Source of the DNA: Dialister micraerophilus DSM 19965
Lineage (GTDB): Bacteria; Bacillota; Negativicutes; Veillonellales; Dialisteraceae
Reading direction: 5' to 3'
DNA: 64,000 nucleotides
Assembly: GCF_000194985.1 (NCBI RefSeq)
Contig: NZ_GL878519.1
Coordinates: forward strand, 85,904 to 149,903
In this document: in pieces, positions 295 to 35,870 of the stretch
How positions within the stretch are numbered: the stretch's first letter is position 1
How the letters are laid out: each line of letters starts with the position of its first letter
Notes under the pieces: model-generated
The model's input: the letters and a program-made list of their open reading frames with translations, nothing else
The model's database searches: none
What the model was told of the DNA's origin: nothing
Made by a program: the position numbers and the translations under genes

Positions 295-303
295 AATATT
301 TCC

Positions 304-400
304 TCTCATCTGCCAGCTTTTGCTGTTGGAATTAGCACCGTTTCTTAATGATGGTTGCCGTAGCTTCATAGGGCCAGTCCCTCTGCTACTCTTGATGAGC
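304..400 (-). promoter_or_regulatory. SAM-I (S-box) riboswitch upstream of metK
   Basis: Read on the minus strand, the segment has the S-box core in order: CTCATCAAGAGTAG (P1 5' side), GAGGGACTGGCCC, TGAAGCTACGGCAACC, GGTGCTAATTCC, and the P1 closing strand GATGAG. These are the hallmark conserved blocks of the SAM-I aptamer. It is followed by a hairpin-T terminator and then metK, the SAM synthetase gene, which is one of the commonest S-box targets. Function is inferred from the family: high SAM terminates transcription. Confidence 0.95.
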
Positions 401-429
401 GACATAAGTCTCATATTTAATTCAAAGTC

Positions 430-18600: not shown

Positions 18601-18610
18601 AATAATTCAC

Positions 18611-18790
18611 AATCCCCACCATGTCGTTGATGCTGTATTTTGAGTCTGCATAATTGCAGGTGGGTGTTCTCCTGAAACATTTTGTTAGTCCCCTTTAAGG
18701 GGCTTTAACGCCACAATTCAACTTGAACTCCCTAAATAAAGGTGTTGGTTCAAAATATAAAGCTGCACGTGCACAGCAGGGGTTTTCTTA
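18611..18790 (-). ncRNA. ssrS: 6S RNA (RNA polymerase-binding regulatory RNA)
   Basis: 6S RNA mimics an open promoter and sequesters the housekeeping RNA polymerase in stationary phase. On the minus strand the segment opens with CCCCTGCTGTGC and closes with ACATGGTGGGG, which pair as a terminal stem. Between them, long partly paired arms (TTGAACCAACACC against GTGTTCTCC-like and TTCAAGTTGAATTGTGG segments) flank a purine/AT-rich centre, as in 6S. About 180 nt, own promoter, own terminator, and a place downstream of aspS next to rarA, as for Bacillus bsrA. No open frame explains the segment. An alternative is another structured leader for rarA, which I consider less likely because of the terminator. 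Confidence 0.75.
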
Positions 18791-32465: not shown

Positions 32466-32499
32466 AATAAAAAACTTTCGTCCTCAAGGGACGAAAGTT
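32466..32499 (-). terminator. T-box terminator upstream of thrS
   Basis: AACTTTCGTCC and GGACGAAAGTT make an 11-bp stem followed by a T-rich tail (TTTTATTTTT) on the minus strand, located between the T-box sequence and thrS. It is the regulated terminator of the leader. Confidence 0.9.
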
Positions 32500-32691
32500 A
32501 AATTCCGCGGTTCCACCCAATTAAAGCAAATGCTTCTCTCCTAAGCAAATAACGATGCAAACCGGAAAATTCTACTTAATTTCAAATTTTCTGTTCAAGA
32601 GCGGTATCGTCTACAAAAAAATTATCTGTTCCCACCAACCACAGACTCTCTAATAATTTCATTTGTAACGCATTTCTCTTTCATTACATTT
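32473..32691 (-). promoter_or_regulatory. T-box riboswitch (threonine specifier) controlling thrS
   Basis: On the minus strand the leader has the stem I AGAGAGTCTGTGG start and GGTGGGAACAG, a specifier loop with GACGATACCGC in which ACC (32603-32605) is a threonine codon, and the T-box itself GGGTGGAACCGCGG (32505-32518) ahead of a terminator hairpin. All hallmark pieces are present in order. The base after TGG in the T-box is A, predicting U as the discriminator base of the sensed tRNA-Thr. Confidence 0.95.
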
Positions 32692-32697
32692 AACAAT

Positions 32698-32732: not shown

Positions 32733-33041
32733 TTATTTATCGTCAGAAGCCTCTTCCATTCTTTTCAAAATTTTTACATATCCGTCAGCACCATATTTCA
32801 AACATTTTTTCACACGTGAAATAGTTGCTGTGCTTACCCCGGTACTTTCTTCTATTTTATCGTATTTTGCACCTTCTTTTAAAAGTCTTGCAACTTCTAA
32901 TCGTTGCGACATATCTTTCAATTCACTTATAGTGCATAAATCTTCAAAAAATTCATAACATTCTTCTCTTGATTCAAGCATAAGTATAGCATCAAAAAGT
33001 TTGTCTGTAATAGGATTTACTAAACGCTGATTTACTCCCAT
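32733..33041 (-). CDS. TrpR/YerC-family DNA-binding protein
   Basis: The 102-residue protein has the YerC/YecD type of TrpR-like helix-turn-helix: LCTISELKDMSQRLEVARLLKEG, then KYDKIEESTGVSTATISRVKKCLKYG as the recognition part. Effector and targets are unknown. It is read away from metN; its promoter takes its -35 box from the 11-bp tandem repeat at 33091-33145. The ribosome site AAGGAG precedes the ATG by a standard spacing. Confidence 0.85.
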   Translation of the reverse strand: MGVNQRLVNPITDKLFDAILMLESREECYEFFEDLCTISELKDMSQRLEVARLLKEGAKYDKIEESTGVSTATISRVKKCLKYGADGYVKILKRMEEASDDK

Positions 33042-33075
33042 AGCATACTCCTTTATTTAAACATCTCTTTAATTG

Positions 33076-33103
33076 ATTATATCATTAAATAAAACTATAT
33101 CAA
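33076..33103 (-). promoter_or_regulatory. yerC promoter using a tandem repeat unit as -35 box
   Basis: Minus-strand TTGATA (33098-33103) and TATAAT (33076-33081) are 16 bases apart. The -35 box is inside the first 11-bp repeat unit; every further unit carries the same TTGATA. Confidence 0.65.
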
Positions 33104-33145
33104 AACTATATCAAAACTATATCAAAACTATATCAAAACTATATC
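33091..33145. repeat. 11-bp tandem repeat, five perfect copies (AAAACTATATC)
   Basis: Five head-to-tail copies of AAAACTATATC, each with an A tract, fill the space between the divergent yerC and metN promoters. A period of 11 bp is close to one DNA helical turn, so the A tracts are in phase and should bend the DNA. There are no spacers, so it is not a CRISPR array. Confidence 0.95.
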
Positions 33146-33165
33146 AAAATCTAATATAAAAACTA

Positions 33166-33194
33166 TTGACACATTTGAAAATAAATAGTAATAT
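33166..33194 (+). promoter_or_regulatory. Promoter of the metNIQ operon
   Basis: TTGACA (33166-33171) and TAATAT (33189-33194) lie 17 bases apart, 27 bases before the SAM-I aptamer and 20 bases after the tandem repeat array. Confidence 0.9.
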
Positions 33195-33220
33195 AAGCTA
33201 ACTTTACAACAACTGAATAT

Positions 33221-33315
33221 TTCATCAAGAGTAGCTGAGGGATTGGCCCTATGAAGCTACGGCAACCATTCATACTGAAACGGTGCCAATTCCATCGGAT
33301 TTCCCGAAAGATGAA
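33221..33315 (+). promoter_or_regulatory. SAM-I (S-box) riboswitch upstream of metNIQ
   Basis: The plus strand shows TTCATCAAGAGTAGCTGAGG, GATTGGCCCTATGAAGC, TACGGCAACC, CGGTGCCAATTCC and the closing GATGAA, the ordered conserved blocks of the SAM-I aptamer. It is followed by a terminator and then metN. This is the second copy in the window, the other serving metK. Confidence 0.95.
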
Positions 33316-33323
33316 CATTAAAC

Positions 33324-33375: not shown

Positions 33376-34413
33376 ATGATAGAACTGAAAAATGTTTATA
33401 AAACTTATGATAATAAAACTAATGCTTTAAACGATATAAATATAAAAATAAAAGAAGGTGAAATATTTGGAATTATCGGCCAATCAGGTGCCGGTAAATC
33501 TACCTTAATACGTTGCATAAACATGCTTGAAACTCCTACATCGGGAGAAGTTATCATAAACGGTAAAGATATTACTAAATTATCAGAAAAAGAATTACGT
33601 AATGAAAGAAAAAAAATCGGAATGATTTTTCAACACTTCAACCTTCTTTCAAATCGTACCGTATATAAGAATATCGCTTTCCCTTTAGAATTATCAAATA
33701 CACCTAAAGAAGAGCAAGAAAAACGCATAAATTCAATGCTTGAATTAGTAGGCTTGACAAATCATAAAAATAAATATCCTTCACAACTTTCAGGAGGACA
33801 AAAACAACGTGTAGGAATAGCAAGAGCATTAATAACTCAACCTTCCATTCTCTTATCGGATGAAGCTACAAGTGCACTTGATCCTGAAACTGTAAAATCA
33901 ATTTTAGATTTATTAAAAGAAATAAACAAAAAACTTGGAATAACAATAATTTTAATAACTCATCAAATGGAAGTTATTAAAAAAATAGCAAATCATGTAG
34001 CTGTAATAGAAAACGGAAAAATTATAGAAGAAGGCTCTGTAATAAATCTTTTCAGCAATCCAAAAACTGAAACGCTAAAAAAATTTATAGGTTCAACAAG
34101 TTTAAACTTACCTGAAGATTCAGAATTTTATAGCATGATAAAAACAAAACATGCTGCAGGCGATAAAATGGTACTCTCATTATCATTTAAAGGTGCTGTC
34201 ACAAATGAACCTATTATTGAGCATTTAATTCGTTTTTATAATTTAAATGTCAGTATATTATATGCTAATATCGATTACATTCAAGAAACACCGTTTGGAA
34301 CATTAATTATTTTACTTGACGGCGCTGAAAATAATGTAGAAAACTCATTTAAATATTTGAAAACACTTCCTATAGAAAGTGAGGTCTTAGGGTATGTCTC
34401 CAATAATAATTAA
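33376..34413 (+). CDS. metN: Methionine ABC importer, ATP-binding protein MetN
   Basis: MetN powers methionine uptake. The 345-residue protein has Walker A GQSGAGKSTLIRCIN, signature QLSGGQKQRVGIARAL, Walker B ILLSDEATSALDP and the H-loop LITHQMEVIK, followed by a C-terminal NIL domain (about 265-345) that in MetN binds methionine and inhibits transport. It is the first gene behind the SAM-I riboswitch, with start ATG after AAGGAGA, and overlaps metI by 20 bases. Confidence 0.97.
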   Translation: MIELKNVYKTYDNKTNALNDINIKIKEGEIFGIIGQSGAGKSTLIRCINMLETPTSGEVIINGKDITKLSEKELRNERKKIGMIFQHFNLLSNRTVYKNIAFPLELSNTPKEEQEKRINSMLELVGLTNHKNKYPSQLSGGQKQRVGIARALITQPSILLSDEATSALDPETVKSILDLLKEINKKLGITIILITHQMEVIKKIANHVAVIENGKIIEEGSVINLFSNPKTETLKKFIGSTSLNLPEDSEFYSMIKTKHAAGDKMVLSLSFKGAVTNEPIIEHLIRFYNLNVSILYANIDYIQETPFGTLIILLDGAENNVENSFKYLKTLPIESEVLGYVSNNN

Positions 34414-35047
34414 TCTTTTATTTAAATCATTGGCAGAAACTTTATACATGTTGTTTGTTTCCTCTCTTTTATCTGCAGTTATTGGCATACCTTTAGGTAT
34501 ATTGCTTGTAGTTACTGAAAAAGGAAAAATTCTTTCATGTTCATTTTGCAATAAACCGTTATCGTTTATAGTAAATATAATTCGGTCAATACCTTTTATA
34601 ATTCTTATGGTAGCAATTATTCCTATAACTCGAATGATTGCAGGAACATCAATCGGAACGAATGCAGCAATAATTCCATTAACAATTGCATCTATACCTT
34701 ATACTGCAAGATTAATAGAGACTTCAGTGCGTGAAATTCCTGTAGGATTGATTGAAGCAGCAAAATCTATGGGCGCTTCACCTTTGCAAATTATAAAAAA
34801 AGTAATTATTCCTGAAGCATTACCCTCAATGATAGAAAATATAACGGTTGTTATAGTAACTCTTATAGGAACCAGTGCAATGGCAGGTACAATTGGCGGC
34901 GGCGGTCTTGGAGATCTTGCTATACGTTACGGATATCAACGTTTTCAAGCAGACGTTATGATTGTCACAATAATAGTGTTAATCGTGATAGTTCAACTTG
35001 TTCAATTCGCAGGAAACTACTTATCACGTAAAACGAATAAAAAATAA
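34394..35047 (+). CDS. metI: Methionine ABC importer, permease protein MetI
   Basis: The 217-residue inner-membrane permease has about five membrane segments and the EAA loop EAAKSMGASPLQIIKKVIIPEALPSM that contacts MetN. RSIPFIILMVAIIPITR and the glycine-rich TIGGGGLGDLAIRYGYQRF near the end are typical of MetI. The start is inside metN, so translation is coupled; metQ follows after 13 bases. Confidence 0.97.
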   Translation: MSPIIINLLFKSLAETLYMLFVSSLLSAVIGIPLGILLVVTEKGKILSCSFCNKPLSFIVNIIRSIPFIILMVAIIPITRMIAGTSIGTNAAIIPLTIASIPYTARLIETSVREIPVGLIEAAKSMGASPLQIIKKVIIPEALPSMIENITVVIVTLIGTSAMAGTIGGGGLGDLAIRYGYQRFQADVMIVTIIVLIVIVQLVQFAGNYLSRKTNKK

Positions 35048-35060
35048 TGGAGGTTATTTT

Positions 35061-35870
35061 ATGAAAAAGAAGTTTTTATTAGGAGGCATTGCAATATTAT
35101 CTGCAGCCATTTTATTATCAGGATGTGGTTCCGCATCCTCAACTAAAAATGAAATTACAGTAGGTGCAACTGCCGGTCCACATGCGCAAGTAGTAGAAGC
35201 AGCAGCAAAAGAAGCGGAAAAACATGGTCTGACTATACATGTAAAAGAATTTTCAGATTATATTACTCCGGATCAGGCCTTATCAGATGGCGACATAGAT
35301 ATCGCTGTATATCAACATAAGCCCTTTCTTGAAAATTTTAACAAACAGCATAATACTGATTTAGTTAATATAGGAAATGCTATTTTGATGAGAATGGGTA
35401 TTTATAGCAACAATTACAAGAATGTAAATGATATACCTGATAATGCAACTGTTTCAATTCCAAATGACCCTACCAATGAAGGTAGAGGATTACAATTACT
35501 TGAACAGGCAGGTTTAATTAAATTAAAAGAAGGCGTTGGAATAAAAGCTACTCCTGCTGATATAGTTTCTAATCCGAAAAATTTGAATTTTAAAGAAATA
35601 GAAGCAGCGCAATTACCAAGAAGCTTAGATGATGTTGATGCTTCAGTTATTACAATGAATTTTGTACAAAGTGCCGGAATATCTCCACAAGAAAAAGGTA
35701 TTTTCTTTGAAGATAAAGACAATCCCCTTGCAGTAATGATAATTGCTACACGTGCAAAAGATAAAGATAATGAAAACTACAAAACATTTGTATCTGCATA
35801 TCAATCCGACGCAGTAAAACAATTTATAAAAGAAACATTCAAAGGTACAATAGAAGCTGCATGGAATTAA
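35061..35870 (+). CDS. metQ: Methionine-binding lipoprotein MetQ
   Basis: MetQ captures methionine outside the inner membrane. The 269-residue protein has a lipoprotein signal with lipobox LLSGC (Cys about 20), then the NlpA-family motifs VGATAGPHAQVVEAA, LSDGDIDIAVYQHKPFLENF and SIPNDPTNEGRGLQLLEQAGLI. I start at ATG 35061 after GGAGGTT; a longer in-frame start lies within metI. It ends the metNIQ operon at a strong terminator. Confidence 0.97.
   Translation: MKKKFLLGGIAILSAAILLSGCGSASSTKNEITVGATAGPHAQVVEAAAKEAEKHGLTIHVKEFSDYITPDQALSDGDIDIAVYQHKPFLENFNKQHNTDLVNIGNAILMRMGIYSNNYKNVNDIPDNATVSIPNDPTNEGRGLQLLEQAGLIKLKEGVGIKATPADIVSNPKNLNFKEIEAAQLPRSLDDVDASVITMNFVQSAGISPQEKGIFFEDKDNPLAVMIIATRAKDKDNENYKTFVSAYQSDAVKQFIKETFKGTIEAAWN

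Follow-up and report, generated by a model that had tools for sequence, protein, structure and literature searches.

The divergent promoters of yerC and metN in Dialister micraerophilus DSM 19965 are separated by five perfect tandem copies of the 11-bp unit AAAACTATATC. With a probability that we place at about 0.6, this array is a young minisatellite, expanded by slippage, which took over the -35 region of yerC; its curvature and A-tracts would be incidental and its effect on transcription at most modest and constitutive. Control of both operons most likely rests on two elements that predate the array, the repressor HisR and a SAM riboswitch. The window analysed has 64,000 nucleotides (30% G+C) and belongs to a genome of 1.28 Mb. 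Pattern searches were genome-wide, while the background for TRF and for curvature was a 400-kb sample of the genome taken in stretches.

Sequence and extent of the array

The five perfect copies occupy positions 33091-33145 of the plus strand, with starts at 33091, 33102, 33113, 33124 and 33135. Direct reading and TRF agree on them, in line with the sequence-only reading, which had also correctly placed the end of the perfect copies 20 bases short of the metN -35 box. Two degraded copies, AAAATCTAATAT and AAAAACTAT (33146-33165, plus strand, identified from the sequence and by TRF), lie between the perfect array and this box. Growth by slippage fits such an arrangement of perfect inner copies and degraded copies at the metN edge. 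When the degraded copies are included, TRF delimits an array of 6.7 copies (33091-33166) with a score of 127, the runner-up in the window scoring 63. It is the top TRF array of the 400-kb sample and the only case there of a period of 5-40 with at least 3.5 copies. Ten order-3 Markov simulations of 400 kb gave a best score of 107, with typical values of 58-74 and a lowest peak of 58. The location of the array, exactly between the yerC and metN promoters, is not random.

The array, made of short and perfect tandem repeats next to promoters, has the form that characterizes promoter-proximal phase-variable repeats (contingency loci). A coding role was discarded, no ORF of at least 70 aa spanning the array, and a role at the transcript level is unlikely because the array is found upstream of both inferred start sites.

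The pattern search of the 1.28-Mb genome found no second occurrence of the AAAACTATATC dimer, and none was present in the viral contigs searched. Seven single units are found outside the array, against about 4-5 expected from an estimate based on base composition. These figures bear on the proposal that the array binds a regulator reading 11-bp direct repeats, such as a response regulator of the OmpR/PhoB type. The unit can be divided into 7 bp (CTATATC) and 4 bp (AAAA), which is the 7+4 direct-repeat layout of the PhoB box (pho box), and three Trans_reg_C proteins are encoded in the genome. A binding array is nevertheless very unlikely: CTATATCnnnnCTATATC is found nowhere else in the genome or in 11 family relatives, single units are near chance level, and one target in one species is not what would be expected of a regulator.

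Promoters and regulators flanking the array

The gene yerC (32733-33041, minus strand) codes for a TrpR-family repressor of 102 aa (TIGR02531, 133.9 bits, above cut-off) whose closest named matches are from Veillonellaceae bacteria and Dialister sp., followed by Veillonella and Megasphaera. A comparative study names YerC HisR, assigns it to the TrpR family as a repressor that acts on histidine genes, gives cacTTTAnnnnnnTAAAgtg as its operator consensus and lists among its targets hisXYZ and, as predicted for Dialister, hisR itself, i.e. autoregulation (PMC9413887).

The promoter of yerC/hisR reads TTGATA-16-TATAAT (11/12), with TGA before TATAAT (extended -10). Its -35 box TTGATA (33098-33103, minus strand) is formed by copy 1 together with the AA that begins copy 2, which bears out the earlier view that the first copy supplies this element. 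The extended -10 TGATATAAT (33076-33084, minus strand) is conserved as TGnTATAAT in 12/12 family genomes compared. It is overlapped by a HisR-like operator, TGATATAATCAATTAAAGAG (33065-33084, minus strand), which agrees with cacTTTAnnnnnnTAAAgtg at 9 of the 14 fixed positions. A TAAAG operator half is found within 18 bases after the yerC -10 in 10 of the 12 genomes, versus a shuffled mean of 1.3. The promoter call of the sequence-only reading was correct; it had left yerC unspecified and missed both the HisR identity and the operator-like site over the -10.

The conserved control beside the array would be HisR autoregulation, as suggested by the sequence and by PMC9413887. With a TrpR-family YerC protein and a predicted HisR palindrome at its promoter, hisR qualifies as a putative HisR-autoregulated gene. 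The position of the palindrome at the hisR promoter agrees with the prediction for Dialister; an array adjoins the operator here, whereas none is mentioned in the passages of PMC9413887 that were consulted. That the repeats are themselves HisR operators reinforcing this autoregulation is most improbable, even though HisR is encoded next door and its autoregulation is predicted in the genus (PMC9413887). The unit has no TTTA...TAAA half-sites, and the HisR-like site is located outside the array, over the -10, and is retained in relatives without repeats.

No match to histidinol dehydrogenase was found in the genome, so HisR probably governs uptake in this species, hisXYZ being among the targets given in PMC9413887. 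Note that a probable histidine auxotroph (no detectable histidinol dehydrogenase) seems to retain the repressor HisR. The search for more HisR-like sites in the genome gave 13 matches versus 15 in the control, i.e. control level. One of them (C1:54861), looked at more closely, lies, as judged by eye, in or beside polysaccharide pyruvyl transferase-like and transketolase-like ORFs, which are not histidine genes. A T-box leader (32484-32693, minus strand, 119.1 bits) is found between yerC and thrS.

On the other side of the array, the metN promoter TTGACA-17-TAATAT (33166-33194, plus strand, 10/12) is followed by a SAM riboswitch (RF00162) in the metN leader (33219-33317, plus strand, 85.4 bits). 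Both elements had been proposed from the sequence and were confirmed. The methionine importer genes that follow (33376-35870, plus strand) are metN (33376-34413), metI (34394-35047) and metQ (about 35058-35870). MetI and the MetQ/NlpA family protein score above their profile cut-offs; MetN is a best match that stays under its cut-off (423.9 vs 499.7). The window also carries a second SAM riboswitch (303-401, minus strand, 87.1 bits) and a 6S RNA gene (18609-18785, minus strand, 86 bits).

The yerC-metN spacer in relatives

The locus was compared with 11 sequenced relatives of the family (12 genomes with the present one) and with 60 other genomes of the order. The divergent organization of yerC and metN is found in 10 of the 11 family relatives. 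The exception is L044: beyond its yerC promoter, the place expected for metN is taken by unrelated sequence with the appearance of a transposase gene. The SAM riboswitch is present in 9/11 relatives, and an equivalent metN promoter likewise in 9/11. In another relative (L046), yerC and metN are divergent, the leader has no SAM riboswitch match, and a single AAAACTATATC is found on the yerC strand in the spacer (upstream of yerC, positions 1100-1500).

None of the 11 relatives has a perfect tandem of at least three copies with a period of 8-13 in the 400 bp upstream of yerC, and none has paired AAAACTATATC units. A lone dimer with 3 mismatches (L093, another family) is all that was found in the 60 genomes from the rest of the order; it was rejected as an array and attributed to chance, being degraded and having no more copies nearby. 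Among the genomes compared, the array appears to be species-specific, being found in this species only. Because all 11 relatives lack it, the array does not belong to the conserved machinery of methionine control.

Across the family, the gap that separates the yerC -10 from the metN -35 can be as short as 56 bp or as long as 318 bp. It measures 84 bp here and 85 and 81 bp in two low-GC relatives, so the array is not a lengthening relative to these two, in which unrelated sequence occupies its position. The yerC -35 boxes of relatives are other hexamers, e.g. TTTACA and TTTGCA, spaced by 17-18 bp, and it follows that the ancestral yerC -35 was probably overwritten by the array.

The young-minisatellite reading accommodates these observations as follows. 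In a spacer that is itself not conserved but lies between two conserved promoters, an AT-rich 11-bp unit would have multiplied, with replication slippage as the most likely mechanism, and the ancestral yerC/hisR -35 region would have been displaced, as the comparison suggests, by the equivalent TTGATA seen in the sequence. The array may have happened to bring an equivalent -35, or may have been retained for bringing one. Regulation would be left to two conserved elements: the metN leader with its SAM riboswitch, and HisR bound over the yerC -10. The locus chiefly illustrates that a promoter can survive when its -35 box is overwritten by a slippage array: the repeat unit brings a good hexamer of its own, next to an extended -10 that is conserved. 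Pointing against this reading, the status of the array as the sole one of its kind in the 400-kb sample, its siting between the promoters, the top wedge-model curvature and the near-equal gap length would also fit selection.

Predicted curvature

Curvature was predicted with dinucleotide wedge parameters (Bolshoy set) in segments of 75 bp and with a second model made of simple A-tract vectors at 10.5 bp per turn. The strongest predicted intrinsic curvature (33070-33164, on neither strand in particular) amounts in the wedge model to as much as 127 degrees over 75 bp and is weaker under the A-tract model. The value of 127 degrees, attained at 33075-33149, is the maximum of the 400-kb sample, whose 99.9th percentile is 94.6 (wedge model). 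The A4 tracts recur every 11 bp, with centres from 33092.5 to 33136.5, i.e. near the helical period. When the 11-mer was permuted, an equally strong bend resulted in only 2.7% of cases. The A-tract model places the array at about the 99.4th percentile; when the AT-rich spacer was shuffled 2000 times, 205 of the products bent at least as much. Strong intrinsic curvature of the array is likely, not certain, and depends on the model. The earlier claim of bent DNA stands as to the phased A-tracts and the top rank in the wedge model, the strength of the bend being less in the A-tract model.

The A-tracts on the yerC side are at -45.5 and -56.5. Relative to the inferred metN start, those of the degraded copies have their centres at -53 and -41, which are UP-like positions. 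One may envisage a fixed, curved UP-like element which selection would have kept for the steady, strong transcription of hisR, metNIQ or both and not for variability. The wedge-model rank, the A-tracts near metN UP-element positions and a gap length that is possibly conserved (84, 85 and 81 bp) would all suit it. It is nonetheless an unlikely explanation, given that curvature is not conserved in most relatives (9/11 are under the 93rd percentile in the wedge model) and that shuffled spacers reach the observed value in the A-tract model as often as stated above. In the minisatellite reading, A-tracts follow one another at intervals of about one turn ahead of each promoter, so that the spacer is probably curved, and the effect would be at most a modest constitutive shift in upstream DNA shape or alpha-subunit contact. 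One relative (L045) is a clear exception, with a predicted curvature of 109.5 degrees per 75 bp in its yerC-metN spacer (148 bp upstream of yerC), without repeats.

Copy number and comparison with known repeat switches

Copy number was simulated from 0 to 8 units. With 1-8 copies, the yerC -35 TTGATA and its 16-bp spacing are constant and the metN core promoter is untouched; with zero copies, the yerC -35 is lost and TATATT takes its place. The metN A-tracts centred at -41 and -53 keep their position at any copy number. One added copy is 11 bp and exceeds a full turn by about 17 degrees. In the model, the bend is 23 degrees with 0 copies, 123 with 5 (the maximum) and 66 with 8.

These values bear on whether the array acts as a copy-number rheostat, in which slippage would alter curvature and the contacts of the RNA polymerase alpha-subunit with A-tracts, leading to graded tuning of hisR, metNIQ or both. 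The dependence of the modelled bend on copy number and the placement of A-tracts upstream of both promoters would allow it, and precedents exist. The T-tract of the Helicobacter pylori sabA promoter, beside the -35, is a rheostat-like simple sequence repeat whose clones differ by 1-bp steps, so that the upstream DNA turns around its axis, with measured effects on expression (PMC4081817). The present array resembles it as an AT-rich repeat touching a -35, with A-boxes 10-11 bp apart and an effect expected via DNA shape and alpha-subunit contact. It differs in that its unit of 11 bp nearly keeps the phase and that it includes the -35 itself. In Neisseria meningitidis, promoter output changes with the copy number of the TAAA tract upstream of nadA (PMC2791445). 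The nadA tract likewise is repeated in tandem, precedes a promoter and has a ligand-responsive repressor close by, but it lies between NadR operators and alters their spacing, whereas here a single HisR-like site is found on one side of the array.

A rheostat is doubtful, because an 11-bp step shifts the helical phase by no more than about 17 degrees, in contrast to the steps of 1 bp and 4 bp in the two precedents, because the A-tracts closest to metN sit in the degraded edge and are fixed relative to metN whatever the copy number, and because copy number alters neither core promoter. The bolder form of this idea, that one slippage-prone 11-bp array tunes a histidine repressor and a methionine importer together by whole helical turns of curved DNA with core promoters intact (graded phase variation), seems rather improbable. 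If copy number were variable and effective, repeat-length tuning would reach beyond surface proteins into the supply of amino acids, and would do so with a unit that hardly shifts the helical phase.

The TA repeat between the divergent hifA and hifB genes of Haemophilus influenzae lies between -10 and -35 and changes their spacing, which results in on/off switching. The present array also is one repeat common to two divergent promoters; unlike in hifA/hifB, its copy number changes the spacing of neither promoter over 1-8 copies. Judged on this predicted anatomy, a spacing-type on/off switch is excluded. As both core promoters would stay constant over these copy numbers, an on/off switch of any kind by the array is unlikely. 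The proposal that the array is an on/off device for methionine uptake is not supported on these grounds and because the array is found in 0/11 relatives. The core promoter in contact with the array belongs to yerC, which codes for the histidine repressor HisR and so has to do with histidine rather than methionine.
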